Virus record (IMG/VR): IMGVR_UViG_3300046009_010245
Span: 1 to 21,037 of that record
DNA from: a virus
Direction: 5' to 3' (one strand)
DNA length: 21,037 nucleotides
Below are positions 4,714 through 16,686 of the stretch, piece after piece; position 1 is the first letter of the stretch, and every line of letters starts with the position of its first letter. The notes below the pieces were generated by a model. That model was not told the DNA's origin. It did not search any database and worked only from the letters and a program-made list of their open reading frames with translations. The position numbers and the translations under genes are program-made.

Positions 4714-7326
4714 TTAATTTAAATAATCGGAAAACTCCATTTCACATACTTTATATTCAATAGAATTATTTTTTTCCAATTCTTTTATATTCAAAAAAAC
4801 AACATCTTTTTCTAAAAAATTTTTATTGTTTTCTTTGATATAATCAAAGAAATTCCACGCAAGAACAATTAAAACTTTTGGCAAATTATCCAAAGCATAA
4901 TTTTTATTTTTTATCGGAATATTAACTCCTGGAATAAACTTACCATGTTTCATTATATTATCATCGATAGTATAATTAATGTGAGTATTATTGATTCCAA
5001 AATAATTCAATGATGTTGTTGCTTTAGCAGGAGATCCATAAGCAGCAATTTTTCCATATTTGTTTTTTAAATATTTTATATTTTTGTTAACAATAATTTT
5101 TATTGCATTTATGTCATTGGCAAATTTTTCATATATGGAAAAATTAGTGATTCCAAAATCTTTTTCTTCTTGTATAAACTTTTCAACACTGGGATCTATA
5201 TTGCAACCCTGTCTAGAAATATAAACGCGAATTGATCCTCCATGTGTATCAATGTGTTCTACTTTATACACACAAAGATTTAAACGATTAAAAAAGTTAT
5301 TCAAAGAAGTAACACTCCAATAATTGTAGTGTTCATGATAAATATTGTCAAAAGTTAAATCTTTAATAGTATCTTTTAAATATTGAACTTCAATTACAAA
5401 AGAACCTTTGTCATTTAATAAATCAAAAACATTGTTGGCAATATCTTTTAATTCATCGGAGTGTGCAAATACGTTAGATGCGGTTACCAATGCAGCTTTT
5501 CCATATTGATTCAATATTTTATCTACGGTTTCTTTCTTAAAATATTCATTTATTGTAGGTATGTTATTTTTGTTTGCCAACTCTGCAATATTTTTTGCTG
5601 GTTCAACGCCAACAACTGGTATTTGTTTTTCTTTTAATGGTTTTATTGCTATTCCGTCATTGCTGCCAATATCCACAACAAGTGTCGATGGTCCTAAATT
5701 AAATTCTGAAATATATTTTTCTGCAGCTTCTTCAAAATGTTTTCTAAATTTTGCAGTGGTAGAAGAAACATACAGATAATTGTCAAACATTTTGCTTGCA
5801 GGAACTGAAACCGACAATTGGCAATTGTGACATTTTGGACAGTAATTCATTTCCAATGGATACATGTCAACATCTTCTTCCAAGGTATTTTTTAAATTAT
5901 TTGCAAGAGGTGAATTGCCCAATGAAATTACTCTTTCAAGATACTTATTGTCGCATGCTCTGCATGTTGTTTTGTAACTTTCAAGTAAAAGATTTTTAGT
6001 CTTTTCGTTTACTAGTTCATATGGAAGTGTGTGGCTGATCCCGTAATTTTCGTGTTCTCTTTCTCCTCTTACCAAATTTAAAAATATAGAATCTTCGGTA
6101 AATACCATTGCATGTGCAACGTTGGGTTTAATTATGGCAACATCACCTTCATTTATTACTCTTGTTTCTATAGGTGAGTTTGGGACAGACAAATCTTTAA
6201 TTACGCTTATGTATTGACCTTTAATCAAAAGACATTTTTGTTCCTGTATTGGATGGTAATGATTTGCCCTTACCGTACCTTTTTTGGATTCTATGTATCC
6301 TATTAGGTTGATGGGTTCTGTCAATTCATAGTTTAATATTTTTCCACGATAGTCTTTGTATTCTTTACCACCACGATCAATATATTCCAAATCTTGTTTT
6401 ATTTTTTTCTCAGACCAATTATGAATCATCTCTTTTAAACAATCTTTAAGATTGTATCTAAATTCAAATCCGGTTTCCAACAATTTTTTATTTGATATCG
6501 TATAACCCAAATTTGGAATTTCATCTTGAGTTTCTATTACATTCACATCCGGATTGATTTCTTTGCAAAGTTCTGCTACTTTTTTTACTGTTATATTTTC
6601 CTTTGAAAGATGGAATGTTTCTTTGTTTATGTCCTTTCTTTCTGCCATGTATTTTATACATCTTGCCACATCAAATAGTGGTACCAAACTTTTTACTTGC
6701 ACTCCTCCGGAATATAATTTTATTGTTCCATTTTGTGCTGTTATTTTTGCAAACAAATTTGGCATTATACTCATTCTTGTGCTGTCTGTAGAATAGCCAT
6801 AAACAGAACCAAGACGAAGAATAACATAATTTTTGTCAGAATTTTTTAAATCATTTTCTGATTGAACTTTTACAGTTGAATAAGTGAGTACTGGTGTCGG
6901 GGGTTCTGATTCATCAATTCCCAATTTTGTTTTATCAAAACCCTCATATACAACATGTGTTGATGGAAAAATTATTTTGCAATCTTTTTTTACATTGTTT
7001 ATTATATTTTTAGTTCCATCAATACCGGTGCTTCTTATTAACTCGTCTTGCTCTTTGTTTTCCTGCGTCTTTACATAAGCAACGTCAGTTATTCCAGCAA
7101 GATGAATAACCACATCAGCATCTTGAATATGATGCTTTAAATCATTTTCATCAAGAATAGAACATTGAACATAATCGATACCCCAATCTCTAAGTTGTTT
7201 GACTCGTTCAGATAAAAATTTTTTATCTAAAACTACGATATTTTTAAATCTGGCTTCGCCAGAATATAGTTTGCAGAGTTCACTCCCAATGTATCCAAGA
7301 CCACCTGTAATAACAATTTTTTCCAT
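4714..7326 (-). CDS. Triple-domain sugar enzyme: SDR epimerase/reductase + cupin + zinc-binding C-methyltransferase
   Basis: One ORF fuses three modules; residue numbers count from an in-frame ATG at 7350. Residues 9-310 are an NAD(P)-dependent extended SDR with GGLGYIG (16-22), PSTHVVYE (129-136) and catalytic YSTVK (157-161), acting on a nucleotide sugar. Residues 335-445 form a cupin-like domain with HYHPIQEQ (364-371), as in dTDP-sugar isomerases. Residues 460-878 are a C-methyltransferase: zinc ligands CRAC (463-466) and CPKC (504-507), SAM loop VVDIGSNDG (558-566), and a C-terminal domain with AAYGSPAKATT (769-779). Together they suggest formation of a branched or C-methylated deoxysugar. 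The preferred start is the second ATG (7326), giving MEKIVITGGLGYIG; the first ATG (7350) belongs to a duplicated initiation region. Substrates are not known. Confidence 0.85.
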   Translation of the reverse strand: MEKIVITGGLGYIGSELCKLYSGEARFKNIVVLDKKFLSERVKQLRDWGIDYVQCSILDENDLKHHIQDADVVIHLAGITDVAYVKTQENKEQDELIRSTGIDGTKNIINNVKKDCKIIFPSTHVVYEGFDKTKLGIDESEPPTPVLTYSTVKVQSENDLKNSDKNYVILRLGSVYGYSTDSTRMSIMPNLFAKITAQNGTIKLYSGGVQVKSLVPLFDVARCIKYMAERKDINKETFHLSKENITVKKVAELCKEINPDVNVIETQDEIPNLGYTISNKKLLETGFEFRYNLKDCLKEMIHNWSEKKIKQDLEYIDRGGKEYKDYRGKILNYELTEPINLIGYIESKKGTVRANHYHPIQEQKCLLIKGQYISVIKDLSVPNSPIETRVINEGDVAIIKPNVAHAMVFTEDSIFLNLVRGEREHENYGISHTLPYELVNEKTKNLLLESYKTTCRACDNKYLERVISLGNSPLANNLKNTLEEDVDMYPLEMNYCPKCHNCQLSVSVPASKMFDNYLYVSSTTAKFRKHFEEAAEKYISEFNLGPSTLVVDIGSNDGIAIKPLKEKQIPVVGVEPAKNIAELANKNNIPTINEYFKKETVDKILNQYGKAALVTASNVFAHSDELKDIANNVFDLLNDKGSFVIEVQYLKDTIKDLTFDNIYHEHYNYWSVTSLNNFFNRLNLCVYKVEHIDTHGGSIRVYISRQGCNIDPSVEKFIQEEKDFGITNFSIYEKFANDINAIKIIVNKNIKYLKNKYGKIAAYGSPAKATTSLNYFGINNTHINYTIDDNIMKHGKFIPGVNIPIKNKNYALDNLPKVLIVLAWNFFDYIKENNKNFLEKDVVFLNIKELEKNNSIEYKVCEMEFSDYLN

Positions 7327-7363
7327 TTGTATTCTTTCTAATTTTTCCATCTGTATTCTTTCT
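7316..7363 (-). repeat. 24-bp tandem duplication of a ribosome-binding/start region
   Basis: Two adjacent 24-bp copies (7340-7363 and 7316-7339) match at 22 of 24 positions. Each carries AGAAAGAATACA, a purine-rich ribosome-binding stretch, followed by ATGGAAAAA or ATGGAAAAAA. The duplication is in frame (24 = 8 codons), so either ATG can open the same ORF. The downstream copy puts the ATG at the expected family N-terminus. Confidence 0.85.
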
Positions 7364-7396
7364 AAAACAATATACTATAAAGTTTTTACAAATCAA

Positions 7397-7945
7397 TTAT
7401 AATTCAAAAATCCAGCAAGATCCAGATTTTTTTACACCTGGTAACAATTCGTTGATTGCTCTATCTACTGGGCCATAATTGCAGTCATGGCCAGCCAAAA
7501 TTCCACCTGGTGCTATTTTTGGTAACCAATGTTGTATGTCTTCTTTTATAAATTCATATTCGTGGGAAGCGTCAATAAACACAAATTGCAAACTTTTTTC
7601 TTTATATAGTTTTGATGCTTCTACCGAAGTATTTTTTATAGGAATTATTATACTTGAAAGTGGTTTAATATTTTCTAAAAATACTTCATATAATTTATCT
7701 TCTTTTACTGCGGGGTCATTCATGTGAGATTCCACTTCTGGTGATCCCTTCCATGTATCTACACAATCAAATTTAATATTTTTTTGAGAATTATAAATTT
7801 CAACACCCATATAAACTGCGCTTCTTCCTTTCCAAGAACCAACCTCAACAAAATGAGAACCGTTTGGGTATTTTAATACAATTGAACTGTATAAATCTCC
7901 ATAATCAAACCAATTTTCTCCAATATTTTGATAATAATGTTCCAT
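7397..7945 (-). CDS. Class I SAM-dependent methyltransferase (Methyltransf_24-like)
   Basis: This 182-residue soluble methyltransferase is probably for sugar or glycan O-methylation. The SAM-binding loop FVEVGSWKGRSA is at 32-43, the acidic strand FIDASHEYE at 123-131, and GGILAGHD at 147-154 ends the core. This pattern belongs to the small Methyltransf_24/macrocin-O-methyltransferase-like group often found in polysaccharide clusters. Its ATG shares one base with the stop of the upstream epimerase (TAATG), a tight coupling. The downstream gap to the fusion gene is 46 bases. The acceptor cannot be read from sequence. Confidence 0.82.
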   Translation of the reverse strand: MEHYYQNIGENWFDYGDLYSSIVLKYPNGSHFVEVGSWKGRSAVYMGVEIYNSQKNIKFDCVDTWKGSPEVESHMNDPAVKEDKLYEVFLENIKPLSSIIIPIKNTSVEASKLYKEKSLQFVFIDASHEYEFIKEDIQHWLPKIAPGGILAGHDCNYGPVDRAINELLPGVKKSGSCWIFEL

Positions 7946-8910
7946 TATTTTAGTCCTTTAATCCAATTATATGTTTTTTCAAGACCATAAGTTAATGGCT
8001 TAGTGGGGTGCCAATTTAACTTTAGTCTCATCAAGTTGTTATCAGAATTTCTTCCACGAACTCCTTGTGGGCCAGAAATATTTTTGATTGTTAATTTTTT
8101 ATTTGCAATTTGCATAACTATTTCTGCCAACTTATTTATCGATACCATTTCTTCTGAACCAATATTAAGTGGCCCGTTGAAGTCCGATTCCATGAATCTT
8201 CTTACCGCTTCAACGCATTCATCAATATAAAGGAAAGATCTTGTTTGCTGACCATCTCCCCATATTTCCATGGTTTCGTCTTCAGAGAATGCAACCTTTC
8301 TGCATATTGCTGCGGGTGCTTTTTCTTTTCCATTGTTCCAAGAGCCATATGGACCAAAGATATTATGAAATCTTCCAATTCTAACAGGAAGACCATAATT
8401 TCTGTTGTATGCTAGATATAAACGCTCGCTGAATAACTTTTCCCATCCATACTCGCTGTCTGGTGCAGCTGGATATGCAGACTCCTCGGAACACTTTGGG
8501 TTGTTTGGATCTAGCTGGTTATATTCCGGATAAATGCAAGCAGAAGACGAGTAGAAAATTTTTGGCATCTTTGTATATCTTACTGCTTCATTTGCGATGT
8601 TCAGATTGATCTGCGCTGAGTTATGCATAACATCCGCATCATGATTTCCAGTAAAGATATATCCTGCTCCACCCATATCTGCGGCCAATTGATAGATCTC
8701 ATCAAAGGTTTGACCTTCATCTATTCTCATTGAATTTTTTACTTGAGCAGGGTCCCGAAGATCAACAACATAAAATTGATCTGCATCCGATTGTTTGTAT
8801 TCGTGGATTTTTATGTCTGCTGCACGAACAAAATAACCTTCATTTTTAAGACGAGTAACTAGATGACCCCCAATAAATCCACCACCACCACACACTAATG
8901 CTGTTTTCAT
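7945..8910 (-). CDS. GDP-mannose 3,5-epimerase-like SDR
   Basis: This enzyme probably converts GDP-D-mannose to GDP-L-galactose or GDP-L-gulose. It has an N-terminal GGGGFIG NAD loop (8-14), SACIYPE (123-129), YGWEK (154-158), RFHNIFGPYG, KEKAPAA (195-201), GDGQQTRSF and GVRGRNSDNN, a series I recognise from plant GDP-mannose 3,5-epimerase. The catalytic residues known in the Arabidopsis enzyme (C145, Y174, K178, K217) correspond to C125, Y154, K158 and K197 here, all with the same offset of 20, so the active site looks intact. The length of 321 is slightly shorter than plant GME, lacking only an N-terminal extension. Local GC is visibly higher than in flanking genes. Some bacterial relatives may use other sugars; this family subtype is likely but unproven. 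Confidence 0.87.
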   Translation of the reverse strand: MKTALVCGGGGFIGGHLVTRLKNEGYFVRAADIKIHEYKQSDADQFYVVDLRDPAQVKNSMRIDEGQTFDEIYQLAADMGGAGYIFTGNHDADVMHNSAQINLNIANEAVRYTKMPKIFYSSSACIYPEYNQLDPNNPKCSEESAYPAAPDSEYGWEKLFSERLYLAYNRNYGLPVRIGRFHNIFGPYGSWNNGKEKAPAAICRKVAFSEDETMEIWGDGQQTRSFLYIDECVEAVRRFMESDFNGPLNIGSEEMVSINKLAEIVMQIANKKLTIKNISGPQGVRGRNSDNNLMRLKLNWHPTKPLTYGLEKTYNWIKGLK

Positions 8911-8911
8911 T

Positions 8912-9685
8912 TTAATCCTTTATATATTTTTTAAACTTGTCCATATTATTTAACACATATTTTGGAAGATAAGACAAATCAGCAATACATTTTAATTTTA
9001 TGTAATTTCTATTAAGAGGATCTATCAAATGCTCTAAACGATTTTCAACAGCATTTAATGATTCGTCTTTCCAGTCATCATGAGCATAATTTTGAAGTTT
9101 ATTTAAAACGTGATTTTTATTTCCTAAAAAAGAAAAGTGCCAACCACCATTTTCAATACCATGAAATTGATGTTTATTGTGTCTAGTAATTTGAGTATTT
9201 GATAAAAATGTATTTTTTCTAAGCATACACGAACTTTGGCTCAAGGTGGAGCCACGATCTTCGGCCTGAGTATTTAAATAATAATAATGCAATATTTGAT
9301 TAAACAATACTGGAAATTTATTTTCTTTTAAAGCTATTTTAACAGCATCAGAGGATGGAATTTCATCTAAATCGGATATAATTATCAAATCATCGTCTGT
9401 TGCATTTTCCAAGCCATAAGTAATGTGATTTCTCTGCATTACATCATTGTACATTGGATCATTTGGTCTAAATTTATCCGCATCAACAATTACATGAATT
9501 ATTTTAGGTAAAAATTTTTCATATTTATGAATATTTTTTTGAAATAGCATTTCTTTTGGTTTGTTTTGATGTGTTCTTTCTCCCTCTACAATTACAAAAT
9601 AATCAACAACATCATTTAATTCATTTAATCTGATTTCCAATAAATCAACTTCATTATAAAACATGAAACAATCATAAATTTTCAT
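8912..9685 (-). CDS. Glycosyltransferase family 17-like
   Basis: This 257-residue protein is like GT17 enzymes, whose founding member is the eukaryotic beta-1,4-GlcNAc transferase MGAT3; bacterial and viral members act on unknown glycans. The N-terminus KIYDCFMFYNEVDLLEIRL with VDYFVIVEGERTHQNKPK is the family hallmark, and a DLDE metal-binding motif (105-108, in ISDLDEIPS) follows. No membrane segment or signal peptide is present. The start overlaps the upstream methyltransferase stop by four bases, and the stop lies one base before the epimerase ATG. Donor and acceptor are unknown. Confidence 0.85.
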   Translation of the reverse strand: MKIYDCFMFYNEVDLLEIRLNELNDVVDYFVIVEGERTHQNKPKEMLFQKNIHKYEKFLPKIIHVIVDADKFRPNDPMYNDVMQRNHITYGLENATDDDLIIISDLDEIPSSDAVKIALKENKFPVLFNQILHYYYLNTQAEDRGSTLSQSSCMLRKNTFLSNTQITRHNKHQFHGIENGGWHFSFLGNKNHVLNKLQNYAHDDWKDESLNAVENRLEHLIDPLNRNYIKLKCIADLSYLPKYVLNNMDKFKKYIKD

Positions 9686-10269
9686 TTGTTAATTCTTTCT
9701 AAAATAGTCAAGCCATTATTGTTTGTTCTTTTTTCTATTAATTTCCAATTTTTATTTTCTTTTAAAAATTCTTCTATGGCTGGCCAAAGACCTTGGATTT
9801 CAGAATTTGTAATTTTACCTGTGTCATAGTTATTTTCATCGACAATTCCATACAATTCTGTATCATGAAAAATTAAAAATTTATTAACTTTTGTGTGATG
9901 TCTATTAAGTTCACTTTTCAATTGTTGATATGTATGCATGGTATCGATAAACAAAAGATCTGTTTCATCTATATCAATAGTTCTAGTATCACCTAATACA
10001 AATTTATAATTAATATTATTTTTTTTTGAATACTCCACAATTTCATTAAATTCTTTTTCACGACCCCAATGACTTGGGTGCTTTAAATCTACGCAAACCA
10101 TTTTTTTTGGGTTTGAAAAAATTAAAGCAACTGTTGAAACTACTCCCCTAACTCCAAATTCAGTAATTGATGTACATTTTTTCCCATATTCAAATAATAT
10201 AGATAAATGTTCATTTATATCAGAAGGCGTGTTGATTAAATCGTTTAAAGTATTATTTAATGTTTTCAT
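9682..10269 (-). CDS. Class I SAM-dependent methyltransferase (CmcI/Methyltransf_24-like)
   Basis: This is a 195-residue soluble protein with a SAM-loop-like TEFGVRGVVS (36-45), an acidic LLFIDTMHTYQQ (105-116) and LIFHDTELYG further on. This is the layout of the cephalosporin-hydroxylase/CmcI-type and Methyltransf_24 proteins found in glycan clusters. It is distinct from the methyltransferase at 7397-7945; the two share only core motifs, so this does not look like a recent duplication. It overlaps the downstream GT17-like gene by four bases and lies 36 bases after the GT-A-like gene. A putative sugar O-methyltransferase role is inference. Confidence 0.75.
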   Translation of the reverse strand: MKTLNNTLNDLINTPSDINEHLSILFEYGKKCTSITEFGVRGVVSTVALIFSNPKKMVCVDLKHPSHWGREKEFNEIVEYSKKNNINYKFVLGDTRTIDIDETDLLFIDTMHTYQQLKSELNRHHTKVNKFLIFHDTELYGIVDENNYDTGKITNSEIQGLWPAIEEFLKENKNWKLIEKRTNNNGLTILERINK

Positions 10270-10305
10270 ATTTAATTATCCAAGTTTAAATAAAAAATTT
10301 GTTTT

Positions 10306-11004
10306 TTAATTTTTAAAGTCATTTAATATTTTTTCCCAATCTAATCCCGGACTTAAAAAATTTTCATGCACGTGTGTACTTACACCGGGAATCGGGGTAA
10401 ATAGTCTAATATTTTTTGTGTACAATTCTCTAAAAAAATTTCTATCATTTGCAAGATGTTTTTTTGCATATGGTAAAATTTCTTTTAACATTTTTTTAGT
10501 ACACATAAAAGTGGCAGTAGTACTTTCCGCTGTTCTCCAATGAGTATTGTTTTTAAAAAATATGCTTTCCATACCAAACGAAATATCATCATCTCTAGTG
10601 TATCTATCTAAATGATCATATCCACTTATTAATTCAAATGTTTTAACACCATCCAACATAATATTTAAAGCATTTGAAGTATGTACATAATCATCTTCTA
10701 AAAAATAGATGTAATCCGAAGAAGAAAAATTTTCTGCATAATCAAATTTAAAAAAAACAGATTTTATTACGGAATTAAAATTGTTAAAAATTACTTTATA
10801 ATTTAATTCCTCGGCTTTATTCGATAAAATATTTTTATGATCTGAATCCATTAAAACTATTAATTCTACTGGATAATTGCAGGACTGTATTGTTTTTTGC
10901 AAATTAAAAAAACAATCCATTTTATTGAACCATTTTGGTCTTCCCGGTCTGGAATTTATTCCATTTAATTCTGCATTGCACGCTGAGTAAAGTATAGTAA
11001 GCAT
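10306..11004 (-). CDS. Putative GT-A-fold glycosyltransferase
   Basis: This is a 232-residue protein with an N-terminal LTILYSACN strand, ELIVLMDSDHKN (about 47-58) and a YIYFLEDDYVHT segment (98-109) in which EDD (103-105) is a plausible DxD-type metal and nucleotide-sugar site. The layout resembles GT-A (GT2-like) enzymes but I cannot place it in a numbered family. The C-terminal VSTHVHENFL may supply a metal-ligand His. No membrane segment is present. Sampled DNA within this gene is among the most AT-rich in the window (22% GC over 10441-10500). Substrate unknown. Confidence 0.7.
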   Translation of the reverse strand: MLTILYSACNAELNGINSRPGRPKWFNKMDCFFNLQKTIQSCNYPVELIVLMDSDHKNILSNKAEELNYKVIFNNFNSVIKSVFFKFDYAENFSSSDYIYFLEDDYVHTSNALNIMLDGVKTFELISGYDHLDRYTRDDDISFGMESIFFKNNTHWRTAESTTATFMCTKKMLKEILPYAKKHLANDRNFFRELYTKNIRLFTPIPGVSTHVHENFLSPGLDWEKILNDFKN

Positions 11005-11025
11005 AAAAATAATTTTTTATAGGTG

Positions 11026-12018
11026 TTATTTTATTTTCCAAAAATCATATATACCTTTTTCAAGTTCATATGAAGACCACAATTTTCTTTCTTGCATTGG
11101 TTGATTTTTTGCCCAATCCCACATTTTTGTAAGACCTAATTTTAAATTTGTTGGATTTTTAAAATTTAAAATTGTTTTAATTTTATCATGTGATACCCAA
11201 GCATCTTTTACTTCATGTCTCTTTTCCAAATAAACTTTCTCCCCGCCACCCATCACTTCAATTAAAATATTGCATGCTTTATTTATTGAACAGTGTTCGT
11301 CACCTCCAATATTAAAAATTTGTTTTGAGGCTTTTGGATCTATAGCACCCTTCCAAAAATACGGAACACAATCATCAACATAACTAAAGGCTCTGGTTTG
11401 GGTTCCGTCTCCGTATATAGACATAGGCATACCATTCATGTGTTGATACATCCAAATACCCAACACGTTTCTGTATTTGTCCCAGATATTTTGTTTTACT
11501 CCATAGACATTATGTGGTCTAAAGATGCACCAATCCATTCCATGTTGCTCCCCGGCTATTTGTATATCCATTTCACATGCATACTTCGCAACACCATATG
11601 GATCAATTGGGTTTTGTTGGTATGCTTCAACGAATGGTGGTTTGTTGACACCATATACTGCCATCGTTGAAGTAAAAACAAATCTTTTTACTTCATGTTT
11701 AATCGATTGGTTTATGAGCCTAGTTGTGGCAATTAAGTTGTTTTCGTAATTAAATTGACGAATAAAGGGGCTTAAACCTTCGGCAGCATATGCTGCAAAA
11801 TGAAAAACATACTCCGGTTTGTGTTTTTCAAACACATCAGCCAAATAATCTGATGAAGCAAGATTTAGTTTGTAGAATTCAACTTTGCTGTTTATATTAT
11901 CAGAATATCCACCACTTAAATCATCAATTCCAATTATATTGCACTTTACGTTTTCTGAAAGCCAATCTGCCAAACGTGAACCCAACAAACCCGCCACACC
12001 AGTTATTAAAATATTCAT
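11026..12018 (-). CDS. NAD-dependent nucleotide-sugar epimerase/dehydratase (GalE-like SDR)
   Basis: This extended SDR has the NAD-binding loop GVAGLLG (7-13), FTSTMAVYG with Ser117/Thr118, and the catalytic YGVAK (Tyr141, Lys145). The motifs RPHNVYG, YGDGTQTRAFSYVDD and FNIGG match UDP-glucose 4-epimerase-type enzymes. The 330-residue length fits. It likely interconverts a UDP-sugar for the island's transferases, though a dehydratase is possible. It is a different lineage from the GDP-mannose-epimerase-like SDR at 7945-8910 and from the SDR module of the fusion protein. Seven bases separate it from the upstream DUF5672 gene, and its leader carries ACTGTGAGAT, also found before the first island gene. 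Confidence 0.85.
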   Translation of the reverse strand: MNILITGVAGLLGSRLADWLSENVKCNIIGIDDLSGGYSDNINSKVEFYKLNLASSDYLADVFEKHKPEYVFHFAAYAAEGLSPFIRQFNYENNLIATTRLINQSIKHEVKRFVFTSTMAVYGVNKPPFVEAYQQNPIDPYGVAKYACEMDIQIAGEQHGMDWCIFRPHNVYGVKQNIWDKYRNVLGIWMYQHMNGMPMSIYGDGTQTRAFSYVDDCVPYFWKGAIDPKASKQIFNIGGDEHCSINKACNILIEVMGGGEKVYLEKRHEVKDAWVSHDKIKTILNFKNPTNLKLGLTKMWDWAKNQPMQERKLWSSYELEKGIYDFWKIK

Positions 12019-12022
12019 ATTA

Positions 12023-12032
12023 ATCTCACAGT
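12023..12032 (-). repeat. Shared 10-bp leader motif ACTGTGAGAT (copy 2, before GalE-like ORF)
   Basis: The same ten bases (minus strand) occur at 16693-16702 before the GT25-like gene. Here the motif ends four bases before the ATG, spanning the DUF5672 stop codon. It acts as a moderate ribosome-binding sequence (GTGAGAT) or may be a repeat left by recombination. Confidence 0.4.
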
Positions 12033-12727
12033 TCTATATTATTTAGACGCATTACTTCAAGCATATGAGTATCTTTTCCATGAAATCCAAATGTTTCATT
12101 TGGATTTGTGTATACTTCATTTACAAACAAACTTTCGCATGAAAATGTTTTAGCCAAATCAAATGAAGCAAATTTATGATTTTTTTCTTCTAATTGTTTT
12201 CTAAAACCAATGCATATTAAAACATCTTCTGGTATGCCAGAATAATCTAAGTTCATAAGAGATGAAACATCTGTCATCAATTTTTTGCTTCTCATGCAAA
12301 AACCACCATTTCCAATATGGAAAGTATTATTTGATTCTATCAACTTTTCGTGAACAAAAGGCCATCTTTGTGTATTAAAAAACAAATGTTTTTTTGGCCA
12401 TGGTGCTCCAATGTAATCATATTGTTGATAATCTGGATTCCATTTATCTGAATGGGTTATAAAACCATCGTCTTGAACAATTATAACAAATTCAGTATCT
12501 ATGTGTTTTACCAAATCAACCAAGCAAAATTTATTGTATCCATCATAGGTTAATTTTGGTATTTCAACATGAGAATAAAAATCAGACTTTCCAAAATTTG
12601 TGTTGCAAAAAAATTTAACATCACCAAATTTAATCCCATTGCAACTATATTTTAGTGCTTTGAGGTGATTTGAATCTTTTCCAACACCATCTATACTTAC
12701 CAAGGTTGTATTTATTAAATTTATCAT
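12026..12727 (-). CDS. DUF5672-family protein (probable glycosyltransferase)
   Basis: This 233-residue protein matches my recollection of DUF5672, a family found in glycan clusters. The region VIIVQDDGFITHSDKWNP (81-98) carries an acidic DDG motif like the metal site of GT-A enzymes, and DYIGAPW (104-110) follows, as does GNGGFCMRSKKL, a typical glycosyltransferase acceptor-side strand. The C-terminus FGFHGKD is also typical. A function is not experimentally assigned as far as I know. Its start overlaps the DUF6165 stop by four bases. I infer a glycosyltransferase, donor unknown. Confidence 0.75.
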   Translation of the reverse strand: MINLINTTLVSIDGVGKDSNHLKALKYSCNGIKFGDVKFFCNTNFGKSDFYSHVEIPKLTYDGYNKFCLVDLVKHIDTEFVIIVQDDGFITHSDKWNPDYQQYDYIGAPWPKKHLFFNTQRWPFVHEKLIESNNTFHIGNGGFCMRSKKLMTDVSSLMNLDYSGIPEDVLICIGFRKQLEEKNHKFASFDLAKTFSCESLFVNEVYTNPNETFGFHGKDTHMLEVMRLNNIEL

Positions 12728-13098
12728 TCTATGTTTGGAAGAATTTTTTCTTCCGTTATTTGGCTGTTTGATAATACATTGATTTTTTTCTTAATCAAGA
12801 ATCTTTTATCGTTAGTAATGTATACGGATCTAGCTAACTCTACAAATTCTTTATCAAATTGTTTTTTTTCTTCTAATATTCTTATTTTATCTTCAATTTC
12901 CCAAAGAGTTTCATTAATTTGTTGCAAAGTTTCAAGTAATTTTTGATCAATATTCAAAGTCTCAACTGCTTCTTTTAAAACTGAATATTCATTTAACAGA
13001 TTTGTATGTTTTTCTGTATGAGTGCTACACTTCTTCAACTTTATGTTTACTATTGTATATTTGTCTACAATTTCTCCATTTGATACTTCTATTTTCAT
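12724..13098 (-). CDS. DUF6165-family small protein
   Basis: This is a 124-residue, helix-rich protein beginning KIEVSNGEIVDKYTIVNIKLKK, the recognisable N-terminus of DUF6165. The middle (about 25-95) is heptad-like and Glu/Lys-rich, probably a coiled coil (ETLQQINETLWEIEDKIRILEEKKQ). No catalytic motif is visible. The family commonly occurs beside glycosyltransferases in my experience, and here it lies one base from a GT9-like gene and overlaps DUF5672 by four bases. It could be a subunit or scaffold for the neighbouring transferases, which is inference. Function unknown. Confidence 0.72.
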   Translation of the reverse strand: MKIEVSNGEIVDKYTIVNIKLKKCSTHTEKHTNLLNEYSVLKEAVETLNIDQKLLETLQQINETLWEIEDKIRILEEKKQFDKEFVELARSVYITNDKRFLIKKKINVLSNSQITEEKILPNIE

Positions 13099-13099
13099 T

Positions 13100-13837
13100 T
13101 TAGATCATGTAAGTCCAATTTACGTTTCTATAGACCATGTTGGTCAGGTTGTAATATGTTGGACTTTCATTCTCCCTTCTTTTTTCATACATGAAAATAT
13201 TATCTGTTTTGCTGTATTTGTCAACCAAATAACACAGAGATGTTTCTACCGTATGTATTTCAGTTGCTTTTTCAATAACACCAATCCAGTCAAAAAGATT
13301 GAACTGATGTTCTTTGTCTTTTTCAAATGACATTTCTATAACCTGATTGTCTGTATGTATTTTTGGAGTTGAACAAACGACATGATTTGGTGGAGTTCCA
13401 TATGTCATATTGAAAAGTGTAAATGGTTTTTTAAGATTTATATTATACTCATCAATCAACTTTTGCTCACGCTCTTCACTTCTTGTGAGACTAAAACTTT
13501 TGTGCCAATTGGTTAATGGTGTATTTGTGTAATAATACTTGCTGGCCATTATAGAACAATTTTTTAAATAATAGTTTGAAAACGAAACCGGAACGTAAAG
13601 ATCCATTTCTGTATTTACTCCCATGTGGGATCCATACAGTTCTTTCATTGGAAACTCTTCCGATTCACGGTGCCAAACTAAATTTGGTTTTTGTAATTGA
13701 GTTGCAAGCATTTCATAATAAAGGTCTATGACTGGCACATGAACTCTGTAGCCACTCTCAATATACCGATCTATTATTGGTTGAATCCAAATTATGTCAC
13801 CCAATCCACATGGCTGATATATCAAACAATTTTTCAT
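13100..13837 (-). CDS. GT9-like (heptosyltransferase-type) glycosyltransferase
   Basis: This 245-residue protein has the N-terminal IYQPCGLGDIIWIQPII segment, the GLGD loop (11-14) of ADP-heptose:LPS heptosyltransferase-type (GT9) GT-B enzymes. The C-terminal half contains IGVIEKATEIHTVETSLCYLVDK, comparable to the GT9 donor-site helix with its Thr/Ser-Glu pair. It is shorter than standard heptosyltransferases (about 320-350), so one Rossmann half may be reduced. It overlaps the GT10-like gene by four bases. A transferase role is probable, but heptose as donor should not be assumed. Confidence 0.7.
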   Translation of the reverse strand: MKNCLIYQPCGLGDIIWIQPIIDRYIESGYRVHVPVIDLYYEMLATQLQKPNLVWHRESEEFPMKELYGSHMGVNTEMDLYVPVSFSNYYLKNCSIMASKYYYTNTPLTNWHKSFSLTRSEEREQKLIDEYNINLKKPFTLFNMTYGTPPNHVVCSTPKIHTDNQVIEMSFEKDKEHQFNLFDWIGVIEKATEIHTVETSLCYLVDKYSKTDNIFMYEKRRENESPTYYNLTNMVYRNVNWTYMI

Positions 13838-14661
13838 AAGAGTTCCACTATTCTATCGTACAAATAATCATCAGAAGTCTGATGATTCATACATCTTTCA
13901 AAGTTGTCCTTGATGGCATCCATCTTGCTGTAATAAAGATCTTCATTTAAATTATTTATGTCGAACTTGTCATCTAGAAGTATGATTCCATCCATGTTGA
14001 ACATTTTCACAACTTCCGGAGTTCCGTAGTAGATTGGAATGGTTCCGCAGGCAAAGCAATCCATAAGTTTTTCTGTGTAATAGTTTGAATAGCGTTCATT
14101 CTCTATGGTAATTGAGAAACAGTAATCACGCAATACATCTTCTTTTTTCTCAAATGAATTGAATGATCTTCCGTAATAATCTATTGGGAATCCAGTGTTT
14201 TTGAACTGAATCATCGTGTTGTTTCTAAAATGATGTCCATTACACATGGTCTTGCCAGAAGAAACCATTGAAACTAGTTTTGTTTTTGGATGTATTCCCC
14301 GGTCAACAACCCAAGTTGAATTTGCCGCAGGAGGACAATAAGAAAAAATGGGTGATATTTCTAACAACTCATGATCGTGTACAAATATTTTTTTATATAC
14401 TGATTGCATTTTTGAAGCGTTTGTCTTCAAAAAATGCATCTGGTGTGGAATGATTCCTTTTGACTCACATATCCACAAAAATTTATTTGGACAATTGCTT
14501 TTAATTCCACCAAATATATCATAATCAAGATAGACTTCTATGCCATCTATTGATTTTTTATCAAAAATCCATTTAAATTTTGAAGGAGGAACATTATGGC
14601 ATGAAGTTACATCATGTTTAAACGGACTTCCATACGCTGATAATTCTTTTGGCTTGATCAT
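13834..14661 (-). CDS. GT10-family (alpha-1,3/4-fucosyltransferase-like) glycosyltransferase
   Basis: This 275-residue protein carries the GT10 hallmark in its C-terminal half: FSITIENERYSNYYTEKLMD followed by CFACGTIPIYYG (about 182-213), the GDP-fucose-binding segment of this family. No transmembrane anchor is present, as in bacterial GT10 enzymes. GT10 members transfer L-fucose, or related L-sugars, from GDP donors. The island's GDP-mannose 3,5-epimerase-like enzyme could supply GDP-L-galactose as an alternative donor. GC is somewhat higher than in its neighbours (38% over 13981-14040). Start and stop overlap the adjacent genes by four bases each. Confidence 0.83.
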   Translation of the reverse strand: MIKPKELSAYGSPFKHDVTSCHNVPPSKFKWIFDKKSIDGIEVYLDYDIFGGIKSNCPNKFLWICESKGIIPHQMHFLKTNASKMQSVYKKIFVHDHELLEISPIFSYCPPAANSTWVVDRGIHPKTKLVSMVSSGKTMCNGHHFRNNTMIQFKNTGFPIDYYGRSFNSFEKKEDVLRDYCFSITIENERYSNYYTEKLMDCFACGTIPIYYGTPEVVKMFNMDGIILLDDKFDINNLNEDLYYSKMDAIKDNFERCMNHQTSDDYLYDRIVELL

Positions 14662-15266
14662 TTCTTTTTATAAAAAGCATCACCCCAAGTTTGTCCATCC
14701 CAACTTGTTACAATTCTTTCAAAACCAAACTGTTTCAAGAACTCATCGATTTGCTCAACCATTGGGCAATCCTTATACAACTCTGCTCTGTTTACTTCGC
14801 AAAGAAGGTATTGAACTTTTTCAAGTGTCTTTTTTGCACCTTTCAATACTTCCAATTCATATCCCTGAACATCAAGTGTAATTAAATTATAATTAAAATC
14901 ATTATTATTAAAATATTCATCTAAAGTAGTAACATTTACTGTTTCTGATGATTCAAATTTAATTGATGGATATTGTAATAAATGTAAAGCAGGCATTAAT
15001 AAAGAACTTGATTGTCCTCCGTTTGAATGCTCTACAAACATGGTTGCTGTTTTTTTTTCAGAACCTAAAGCTATATTTTCTATTTTTACACCTTTTGTTG
15101 GACCCAATTTTATTAATAATTTTTCATATATTTGTTTTTGTGGTTCAAACATTAAAATATTTGTAGACAATTTACTTAAAAAATCATATTCATTTCCTAA
15201 GTGCGCACCGACTTGTATTATACCATTAATTTTAGAATCTATGTATGGATTTATGTCAAATAGCAT
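14658..15266 (-). CDS. FkbM-family methyltransferase
   Basis: This class I SAM methyltransferase of the FkbM family typically O-methylates sugars or polyketide hydroxyls. Numbering from an in-frame ATG at 15281, SAM loop IIQVGAHLGNE is at 21-31, EPQ at 46-48, and the family hallmark LITLDVQGYELEVLKGA is at 133-149. I prefer the second ATG (15266), which shares one base with the upstream fucosyltransferase stop (TAATG). The more upstream ATG overlaps that gene by 16 bases. DNA composition breaks sharply inside the gene near 14880 (35% GC over 14821-14880, 12% over 14881-14940). It overlaps the GT10-like gene by four bases. Acceptor unknown. Confidence 0.84.
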   Translation of the reverse strand: MLFDINPYIDSKINGIIQVGAHLGNEYDFLSKLSTNILMFEPQKQIYEKLLIKLGPTKGVKIENIALGSEKKTATMFVEHSNGGQSSSLLMPALHLLQYPSIKFESSETVNVTTLDEYFNNNDFNYNLITLDVQGYELEVLKGAKKTLEKVQYLLCEVNRAELYKDCPMVEQIDEFLKQFGFERIVTSWDGQTWGDAFYKKK

Positions 15267-16054
15267 TATATTATTTTCCAATCTTCACAATAAATATCAG
15301 ACCAATTTTTTGGCATGTCTGGAGAATTTCCAAACCATTCTGACGGAGCAATTACTTTTTTAGAGTTGCTTAACCATGCTCCCCACCAACTAAAACTGCT
15401 GTTGGCAATTACATGATATTCACATAGAGACATAGTACACATGTCAACAAACTGATTTTCACTTTCTGTTATAAAATATTTTTTGTTTAATGAATCAAAT
15501 ACATCTTTTGCTAAAGCGGGCTCATCACTGAAAGCAATAATTAACATGTCTTCTGGAAGTTCTTTTAAAGCTTCTTTGTAATATTTAATTGAACAAATTG
15601 GATGCTTGCTTACTAAATTTTTGTAATCTCCAAGTCGCAAATGAACACTTATAACTGGTTCTTTTGTTATTGATCGAATATCTGTTGCCTTAAACTTTAT
15701 TTCTTGATTAAAATCAAATTCATTCAATAGATCAGATCTATAATCTTTAAAATATTTTTCACTTTGAAAATAACCAGTTATATCCGTATTATCCAGTACA
15801 CCAAATATTCCAGCATTGTATGTAAATTCTCTTTCCTGTGCTCTATGCCTTGAAACTAAATTTGTGCTGTCTTTTGCGGAAAGATTTGAAAAACATTCAT
15901 TTAAACAAAAGTTGTGATATGGGTTTTCTGATTTTTTTTGCATAGGTACGCCAAATTCATATCCTCTTGTTTTTGCAATTGCATACAAGGTAGCGTATTG
16001 AAACATTTGGTTTCCCATTCTTCCATATGTTCCCATCAAATTAAAAGTGATCAT
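15266..16054 (-). CDS. GT11 alpha-1,2-fucosyltransferase-like protein
   Basis: This 262-residue GT11 enzyme has GRMGNQMFQYA (11-21), the family N-terminus, HLRLGDY (138-144), the HxRxGD-type GDP-binding motif, and ANSSFSWWGAWLS (217-229), the classic alpha-1,2-fucosyltransferase C-terminal motif. These enzymes transfer L-fucose from GDP-fucose to terminal galactose. No GDP-fucose synthesis genes (GMD, fucose synthase) are in the window, so the donor would come from the host or another locus, or be GDP-L-galactose made by the island's epimerase. The start overlaps the GT25-like stop by four bases. The protein is soluble, with no anchor. Confidence 0.88.
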   Translation of the reverse strand: MITFNLMGTYGRMGNQMFQYATLYAIAKTRGYEFGVPMQKKSENPYHNFCLNECFSNLSAKDSTNLVSRHRAQEREFTYNAGIFGVLDNTDITGYFQSEKYFKDYRSDLLNEFDFNQEIKFKATDIRSITKEPVISVHLRLGDYKNLVSKHPICSIKYYKEALKELPEDMLIIAFSDEPALAKDVFDSLNKKYFITESENQFVDMCTMSLCEYHVIANSSFSWWGAWLSNSKKVIAPSEWFGNSPDMPKNWSDIYCEDWKII

Positions 16055-16686
16055 GGAAAAATAAAATTTCTGTTTTCTAACGGTGAGTCAGTTAATGATT
16101 GCCATTTATTTGCATTTTCTCTATCGTTTGACTGATATATTAATGGCTGTATAGTACAATACACTTTTTGTTGAAACTGTATAGAAGATGTTCCTATGTC
16201 CCATGGAACACCCATAGTATACAAACAATGTCTTCCAACGTCTGCCATGTGTTTTCTGTATGATGGTGTTACATACAAAATAGCATGAGCAGCAAGTATC
16301 CCCCCAATTCTATAGTAATTATCATTAATTTTTTGTGTTACGTAATTTCTATTTCCATGAGAAATGCCCAAATATACTCCATCAGAATCTTCTGGAATGT
16401 CTAATATTGGATTAAAATTGTCAACAAATTCTACGTCATCTTCCAATATTAAAAGGGGTGTAGAATATTCCGTATTTTCCAAAATATCAATGTGAGATTG
16501 ACCACATCCCATAAAATGGTAAATTGATTTTTCTGTATTTGGTGGTGGCTCTATCACCAATCCTGATTTTTTGTGTGTATTTTTAAATCCGTGTTTTTTT
16601 AATCTTTCTTCCATTGTCTCTGCATTTTTTGTTGCGGAGTCAAGATTAATCCAAACAACCGGTATTTCCCTAAGATCTATAATCAT
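16051..16686 (-). CDS. GT25-like glycosyltransferase (first gene of the island)
   Basis: This 211-residue protein resembles GT25 enzymes (LPS biosynthesis galactosyltransferase type). It has an N-terminal VVWINLDSATK with MEERLK, GCGQSHIDIL (60-69), which is the GC-x-x-SH signature, and LLILEDDVEFVDN (78-90) with the EDD metal motif. The C-terminus is shorter than in many members. It is the promoter-proximal gene of the island, with a leader of roughly 11 bases after a predicted start near 16697 and a weak ribosome-binding sequence (GAGAT). GT25 members include both lipooligosaccharide and collagen hydroxylysine galactosyltransferases, so a protein acceptor is possible. Confidence 0.8.
   Translation of the reverse strand: MIIDLREIPVVWINLDSATKNAETMEERLKKHGFKNTHKKSGLVIEPPPNTEKSIYHFMGCGQSHIDILENTEYSTPLLILEDDVEFVDNFNPILDIPEDSDGVYLGISHGNRNYVTQKINDNYYRIGGILAAHAILYVTPSYRKHMADVGRHCLYTMGVPWDIGTSSIQFQQKVYCTIQPLIYQSNDRENANKWQSLTDSPLENRNFIFP

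Follow-up and report, generated by a model that had tools for sequence, protein, structure and literature searches.

A phage-encoded SDR-cupin-3-C-methyltransferase fusion shared with SAR11, a candidate branched 6-deoxysugar synthase

The stretch of DNA analysed here (the window), 21,037 nucleotides (21 kb) long, is a record of a T4-like marine phage. Its minus strand encodes, in one frame, a protein in which three folds are joined, an SDR, a cupin and a sugar 3-C-methyltransferase-like domain, each with conserved catalytic residues, and the whole is widely conserved in viruses and in SAR11 bacteria. The reading we prefer, at roughly even confidence, is that this phage-encoded, SAR11-type protein is a "branched 6-deoxysugar synthase" that would make an NDP-3-C-methyl-6-deoxyhexose.

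Gene structure and the three modules

The fusion gene (4714..7350, minus strand) is an ORF of 878 codons without interruption, running from an ATG at 7350 down to a stop at 4714. A second in-frame ATG is located at 7326 (residue 9), and homologues align from residue 9; because most of them begin at this inner ATG, the true product is probably the protein of 870 residues. The start region (7310-7370, minus strand) is a short tandem near-repeat (AGAAAGAATACA[GA]ATGGAAAAA..ATT), which gives the two in-frame ATGs, 7350 and 7326, nearly identical upstream sequence. The initial annotation had placed a fusion of 870 residues at 4714-7326 and had given no strand. Its size is probably right, the end at 7326 being where most homologues start, and the missing strand is minus; a plus-strand reading of 4714-7326 was dropped, since it contains stops throughout. 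A phage setting did not figure in that annotation. The further claims that three modules are fused in one chain and that each keeps its motifs (YxxxK in the SDR, HYH in the cupin, CxxC-CxxC in the methyltransferase) were borne out, and the ORF is unbroken in the window by the stop codons between domains that had been considered as an objection. An assembly artefact or chance read-through was ruled out because some 40 further viral contigs and many SAR11 genomes carry the same three-part frame. The fusion is under purifying selection (dN 0.01-0.28 and dS at least 0.43 wherever computable, in nine pairs compared and in all three modules). An AlphaFold2 model of the whole chain, computed from 63 aligned natural sequences, contained three well-folded domains (mean pLDDT 90.3, pTM 0.79). 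Invariance was counted over 63 homologues for the SDR and the cupin and over 59 for the methyltransferase.

The C-terminal module (residues 460-860; 4771..5973, minus strand) was matched by the Pfam families Methyltransf_13, Methyltransf_23 and Methyltransf_14 with E values of 1e-13 to 1e-40. Methyltransf_13 (zinc CxxC...CxxC) covered residues 463-522 at 51.8 bits (cut-off 31.3), the four cysteines C463, C466, C504 and C507 all being present in the window, and Methyltransf_14 (C-methyltransferase C-terminal domain) covered residues 702-852 at 139.5 bits (cut-off 23.5). The fold is that of MtmC, KijD1 and TcaB9 (TMt about 0.9, 25-32% identity). Residues Y525, H630, Y671, E673 and H674, invariant in 59 of 59 homologues, correspond to Y76, H181, Y222, E224 and H225 of the TcaB9 chain, whose numbering is two off the published numbers; according to the titles of the mutant structures, these five are all the residues mutated in TcaB9 crystal structures. 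MtmC, TcaB9 and KijD1 (TylC3/EryBIII type) share the whole C-terminal 400 residues with the fusion, including the zinc site, SAM domain, C-terminal domain and catalytic residues, but they stand alone in actinobacterial antibiotic pathways, whereas here the unit is fused behind an SDR and a cupin. Sequence and model together point to a putative sugar 3-C-methyltransferase of the TylC3/TcaB9 type. Zinc ligands are lost, with the catalytic residues kept, in a sister subclade of eight sequences (L029, L030, L031, L033, L035, L041, L043 and L089), which have, for example, D-G-C-S or D-T-S-S.

The SDR module (residues 9-315; 6406..7326, minus strand) was matched by Pfam Epimerase over residues 12-240 (1.4e-22, 80.7 bits), and PHROGs returned only a generic epimerase match for the fusion. 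The module has the two signatures sought for an extended SDR, GGLGYIG (GxxGxxG) at the NAD site and Y157-STV-K161 (YxxxK). Y157 and K161 were found in 63 of 63 homologues, glycines 16, 19 and 22 in 61 of 61 (two have gaps), and D42, the Asp after beta-2, in 62 of 63. Following S130, the T-[DS]-E pair of dehydratases is absent and is replaced by T131 (serine in three homologues), H132 and V133, the last two being found in 63 of 63; TIGR01181 scored 61.8 bits against a cut-off of 365. An NDP-sugar 4,6-dehydratase (RmlB/GMD) was rejected because of the missing motif. Since the NAD site and YxxxK are present and T-[DS]-E is not, the SDR should act on C4 by reduction (or oxidation) and not by dehydration, and the 4-keto group would most simply come from another enzyme. 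The best PDB match, by both sequence and fold, was Campylobacter Cj1427 (24% identity), which acts on C4 of GDP-heptose, with other NDP-sugar epimerases close behind by fold.

The cupin module (residues 320-447; 6010..6393, minus strand) carries R361-x-x-H364-Y-H366...Q371 and H413, with NHYHPIQEQK as its motif strand. Pfam Cupin_2 gave 1e-3 and 19.2 bits, under the cut-off of 27.2. In the PDB, a single-sequence search had no match and a profile search had weak matches only (CapF, E 0.11), so a fold search was performed with Foldseek using the isolated AlphaFold2 model (pLDDT 91.8). This matched deoxysugar cupins (E 5e-7, TMq about 0.65) with a jelly-roll fold and the catalytic His motif, namely NDP-4-keto-6-deoxysugar 3,4-ketoisomerases, RmlC-type 3,5-epimerases and ChmJ. 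The best fold matches were the sugar 3,4-ketoisomerases FdtA and QdtA (about 16-22% identity), in which the mutated H49 and H51 form the HxH motif, and the active site looks as much like that of a 3,4-ketoisomerase as that of an epimerase. Keto migration to C3 is, however, incompatible with a C3-methylated carbon, which cannot become a ketone, so the chemistry makes an epimerase role more likely. The fold matches also included DdahB and MlghB, GDP-sugar cupin epimerases of GDP-heptose pathways that are RmlC-like and longer; like Cj1427, they are separate proteins that work on heptoses, without methylation.

CapF/WbjC (UDP-2-acetamido-2,6-dideoxy-L-arabino-hexulose reductase) likewise joins an SDR to a cupin behind it in a single chain; there the cupin epimerises and the SDR reduces C4. 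The likeness to the fusion is weak and located at NH[YW]H; CapF/WbjC has no methyltransferase, and the fusion scores 19.2 bits on NF047837, for which the cut-off is 500. A 743-residue "Methyltransferase" of the giant virus Klosneuvirus KNV1 in BFVD (A0A1V0SJ68) could be aligned with almost all of the model (E 3.7e-51, 20% identity) and for this reason is likely an SDR-methyltransferase fusion, although its relative domain placement differs and, by its length, it probably lacks the cupin. In the open-access literature searched, neither a description of the three-part architecture nor biochemistry on the fusion was found.

Genomic context and distribution

The fusion gene belongs to a glycosylation island of about 12 kb (4714..16686, minus strand) inserted into the T4-like core between gp55 and UvsY, with the sliding clamp gp45, gp46/gp47 and the late sigma factor gp55 on one side and UvsY, UvsW, the tail tube gp19 and the major capsid gp23 on the other. 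Variable regions rich in glycosyltransferases have been described in T4-like phages of SAR11 (PMC7029224). The island contains a homologue of GDP-mannose 3,5-epimerase (GME; 7948..8910, minus strand; PDB 2c59, E 9e-100), a GT17-family glycosyltransferase (8915..9685, minus strand) and two fucosyltransferase-family genes, GT10 (13837-14661, minus strand) and GT11 (15269-16054, minus strand), whose families normally use GDP-fucose. The span from GT10 to GT11 (13837..16054, minus strand) includes an FkbM methyltransferase gene between the two, and the island also holds a UDP-glucose 4-epimerase-like SDR, a glycosyltransferase weakly matched to GT25 and small methyltransferases. No 4,6-dehydratase gene was found within the window. 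The nearest capsids in the phage collection were mostly from cyanophages; at about 53% identity they indicated no firm host, and a host assignment from the capsid was dropped.

Viral loci numbered 16 in the first scan and 54 in a profile scan, and once duplicates were removed, the whole fusion was present in one ORF in about 40 distinct viral records in addition to that of the window, among them a 642-kb phage genome. Two viral copies are broken by stop codons or a frameshift (L007:5310-5495 and L050:5795-5825), through either sequencing error or decay. The initial annotation had implied that the fusion is rare and had named its presence in many bacterial genomes as evidence to the contrary; this rarity was overturned by matches in 90 of 197 sampled genomes of Pelagibacteraceae (SAR11), most of them full length. 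That the steps are usually separate proteins holds true for nearly all other sampled bacteria. Matches were obtained in 11 of 117 sampled genomes of the wider order containing Pelagibacteraceae; among 289 sampled genomes of the class (Alphaproteobacteria), the fusion was found only in the SAR11 centre genome, other matches being nearly all methyltransferase-only; and the SDR-cupin half was absent from 348 of 349 sampled Pseudomonadota. The bacterial matches listed included at least one SAR86 and at least one Patescibacteria carrier, and Patescibacteria were rejected as a wider reservoir, the fusion being present in 1 of 380 genomes of the phylum. Phyla beyond Pseudomonadota and Patescibacteria were covered through the best 80 bacterial loci, all of which span the full fusion and nearly all of which are SAR11. 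From these genome samplings, the fusion is frequent in a single bacterial family and among viruses, and rare elsewhere.

Usually no other sugar gene adjoins the bacterial fusion gene, and a GT17 gene is often its divergent neighbour: the protein cluster to which the window's GT17 belongs was near the fusion in 48 of the 80 bacterial loci and directly adjoining, on the opposite strand, in 45. In many SAR11 loci (L067-L143) the fusion is located between what we take, from reading the sequences, to be a lon/clpX/clpP/tig-like block and nuo operon-like genes. Neighbours in several viral loci (L011, L037, L039 and others), named by their N-termini, are presumably NeuB-like (sialic-acid-type synthase), NeuA-like (CMP-sugar synthetase) and a GDP-fucose synthase beside GMD.

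Proposed pathway and its alternatives

We infer the order and regiochemistry of the reactions, the nucleotide, the acceptor and any channelling as follows. A separate dehydratase of host or phage, most often GDP-mannose 4,6-dehydratase (GMD), would make an NDP-4-keto-6-deoxyhexose. The C-terminal domain would place the methyl group of SAM on C3 in the manner known for TylC3/TcaB9, in which a C3 carbanion beside the 4-keto group accepts the methyl. The cupin would take off and return a proton beside the 4-keto group, which would alter the configuration of C5 (or, if it acts ahead of methylation, of C3), and the SDR would reduce the 4-keto group. The product, an NDP-3-C-methyl-6-deoxyhexose of the virenose or evalose type, would go to one of the island's glycosyltransferases and end up on the host surface or the virion. 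A similar set, comprising GMD, a 3-C-methyltransferase and an epimerase/reductase acting on a 4-keto-6-deoxy sugar, was proposed in silico for Coxiella virenose (PMC3539893), there as separate genes and without a cupin. If the activity is as proposed, a good share of SAR11, which rank among the ocean's most abundant bacteria, would produce 3-C-methyl branched sugars, as would large phages; surface modification or virion glycosylation would then have a concrete, assayable candidate, and the protein would be a ready-made one-chain biocatalyst.

The substrate is probably GDP-linked. Around the fusion, the GDP-sugar genes of the window are GME, GT10 and GT11. Dehydratase surveys were performed for GMD and CDP-glucose dehydratase. 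Of the 197 Pelagibacteraceae genomes, 34 have a short GMD-type dehydratase; the fusion is carried by 31 of these 34, against 59 of the remaining 163 (Fisher 1.7e-9, a statistic that ignores phylogeny). This is an association, not proof, because the genomes share ancestry and are in part incomplete, because the split into short and long forms was made once the table had been seen, and because three other-type matches were left out of the short group. Many SAR11 carriers, their genomes being incomplete, are without a short GMD, and a link with the long form was discarded for want of enrichment in carriers (9 of 32). A GMD homologue (at least 49% identity) was present in 10 of 37 viral records with the fusion or the SDR-cupin half. 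Because a likely GDP-fucose synthase accompanies GMD in some phages, GMD may serve fucose there. CDP-glucose 4,6-dehydratase, counted by hand, was likewise more frequent among carriers (12 of 20) than among non-carriers (10 of 40), and for this reason GDP is favoured and not settled. This count, together with the fact that the best-matching characterised 3-C-methyltransferase structures are dTDP-sugar enzymes, would suit a CDP- or dTDP-linked 4-keto-6-deoxyglucose as the true substrate of the same pathway, in a yersiniose- or mycarose-like branch. Against this, the larger sample shows the stronger link for the GMD type, and GDP is what the sugar genes of the window suggest; we hold the CDP or dTDP substrate to be a doubtful though serious candidate.

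A different course of reaction is suggested by the nearest solved relative of the SDR, Cj1427, which holds NAD(H) tightly and is a C4 dehydrogenase, not the reductase that the preferred pathway calls for. Because it oxidises C4, a self-contained enzyme has to be considered, in which the SDR, acting as Cj1427 or GDP-mannose 3,5-epimerase does, would use bound NAD+ to oxidise an unmodified NDP-hexose or -heptose at C4, the methyltransferase would act on C3, the cupin would epimerise and the SDR would re-reduce C4, with no dehydratase involved. The retention of D42, as in NAD enzymes, agrees with this, as do the SAR11 loci in which GT17 is usually the only sugar gene adjoining the fusion and the 3 of 20 hand-inspected carriers that are without a strong match to GMD or CDP-glucose dehydratase. 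The identity to Cj1427 is just 24%, however, and other NDP-sugar epimerases are nearly equal by fold; the co-occurrence with GMD points to an outside supply of the 4-keto group, 6-deoxy sugars are the substrates of those methyltransferase relatives that have been characterised, and we know of no one-chain oxidise-methylate-reduce enzyme of this kind. We judge the self-contained route unlikely, and its extended form, in which such an enzyme would serve SAR11 and phages from a common nucleotide sugar and phages would swap its halves to vary the product, improbable. A cupin (and perhaps an SDR) with a structural or regulatory part only, which would make the fusion a plain methyltransferase, would fit the failure of the cupin to pass any curated cut-off. 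It fits poorly with the invariance of R361, H364, H366, Q371 and H413 in 63 sequences, and of the three modules the cupin is the best preserved, at 87-91% identity in the three pairs that include the window, where the SDR and the methyltransferase reach 64-76%. This reading is very improbable.

Unfused forms and module exchange

The fusion is not obligatory, because three viral loci (L052, L053 and L058) encode the SDR-cupin protein separately, with the C-methyltransferase gene within about three genes; in a further locus (L054) the two halves are neighbouring genes that overlap by a few bases. The unfused SDR-cupin proteins of these four loci are about 450-460 residues long. Their retention of a C-methyltransferase nearby suggests that the three activities belong together. 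In the fusion, the linker between cupin and methyltransferase is about 12 residues, and substrate channelling within the chain is plausible.

In trees of both halves, which were unrooted and had weak deep support, the SAR11 sequences and one unclassified Proteobacteria contig (L109) cluster with support of 99 and 86, and the viral sequences, the SAR86 copy and the Patescibacteria copy are interleaved. The Patescibacteria copy (L064:8001-10556), 65% identical to that of the window, lies on a MAG contig without obvious phage genes; its place among viral sequences reflects either transfer or misbinning. The eight sequences that have lost zinc ligands group as a single clade (support 92) in the methyltransferase tree but do not stay together in the SDR-cupin tree (AU p 0.029, for a group picked after the data had been seen), and between L001 and L022 identity falls from 92-98% in the SDR front to 38-88% in the methyltransferase. 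Because of this disagreement between the halves and this drop across the gene, module exchange between phages within the fusion is likely, though not proven.
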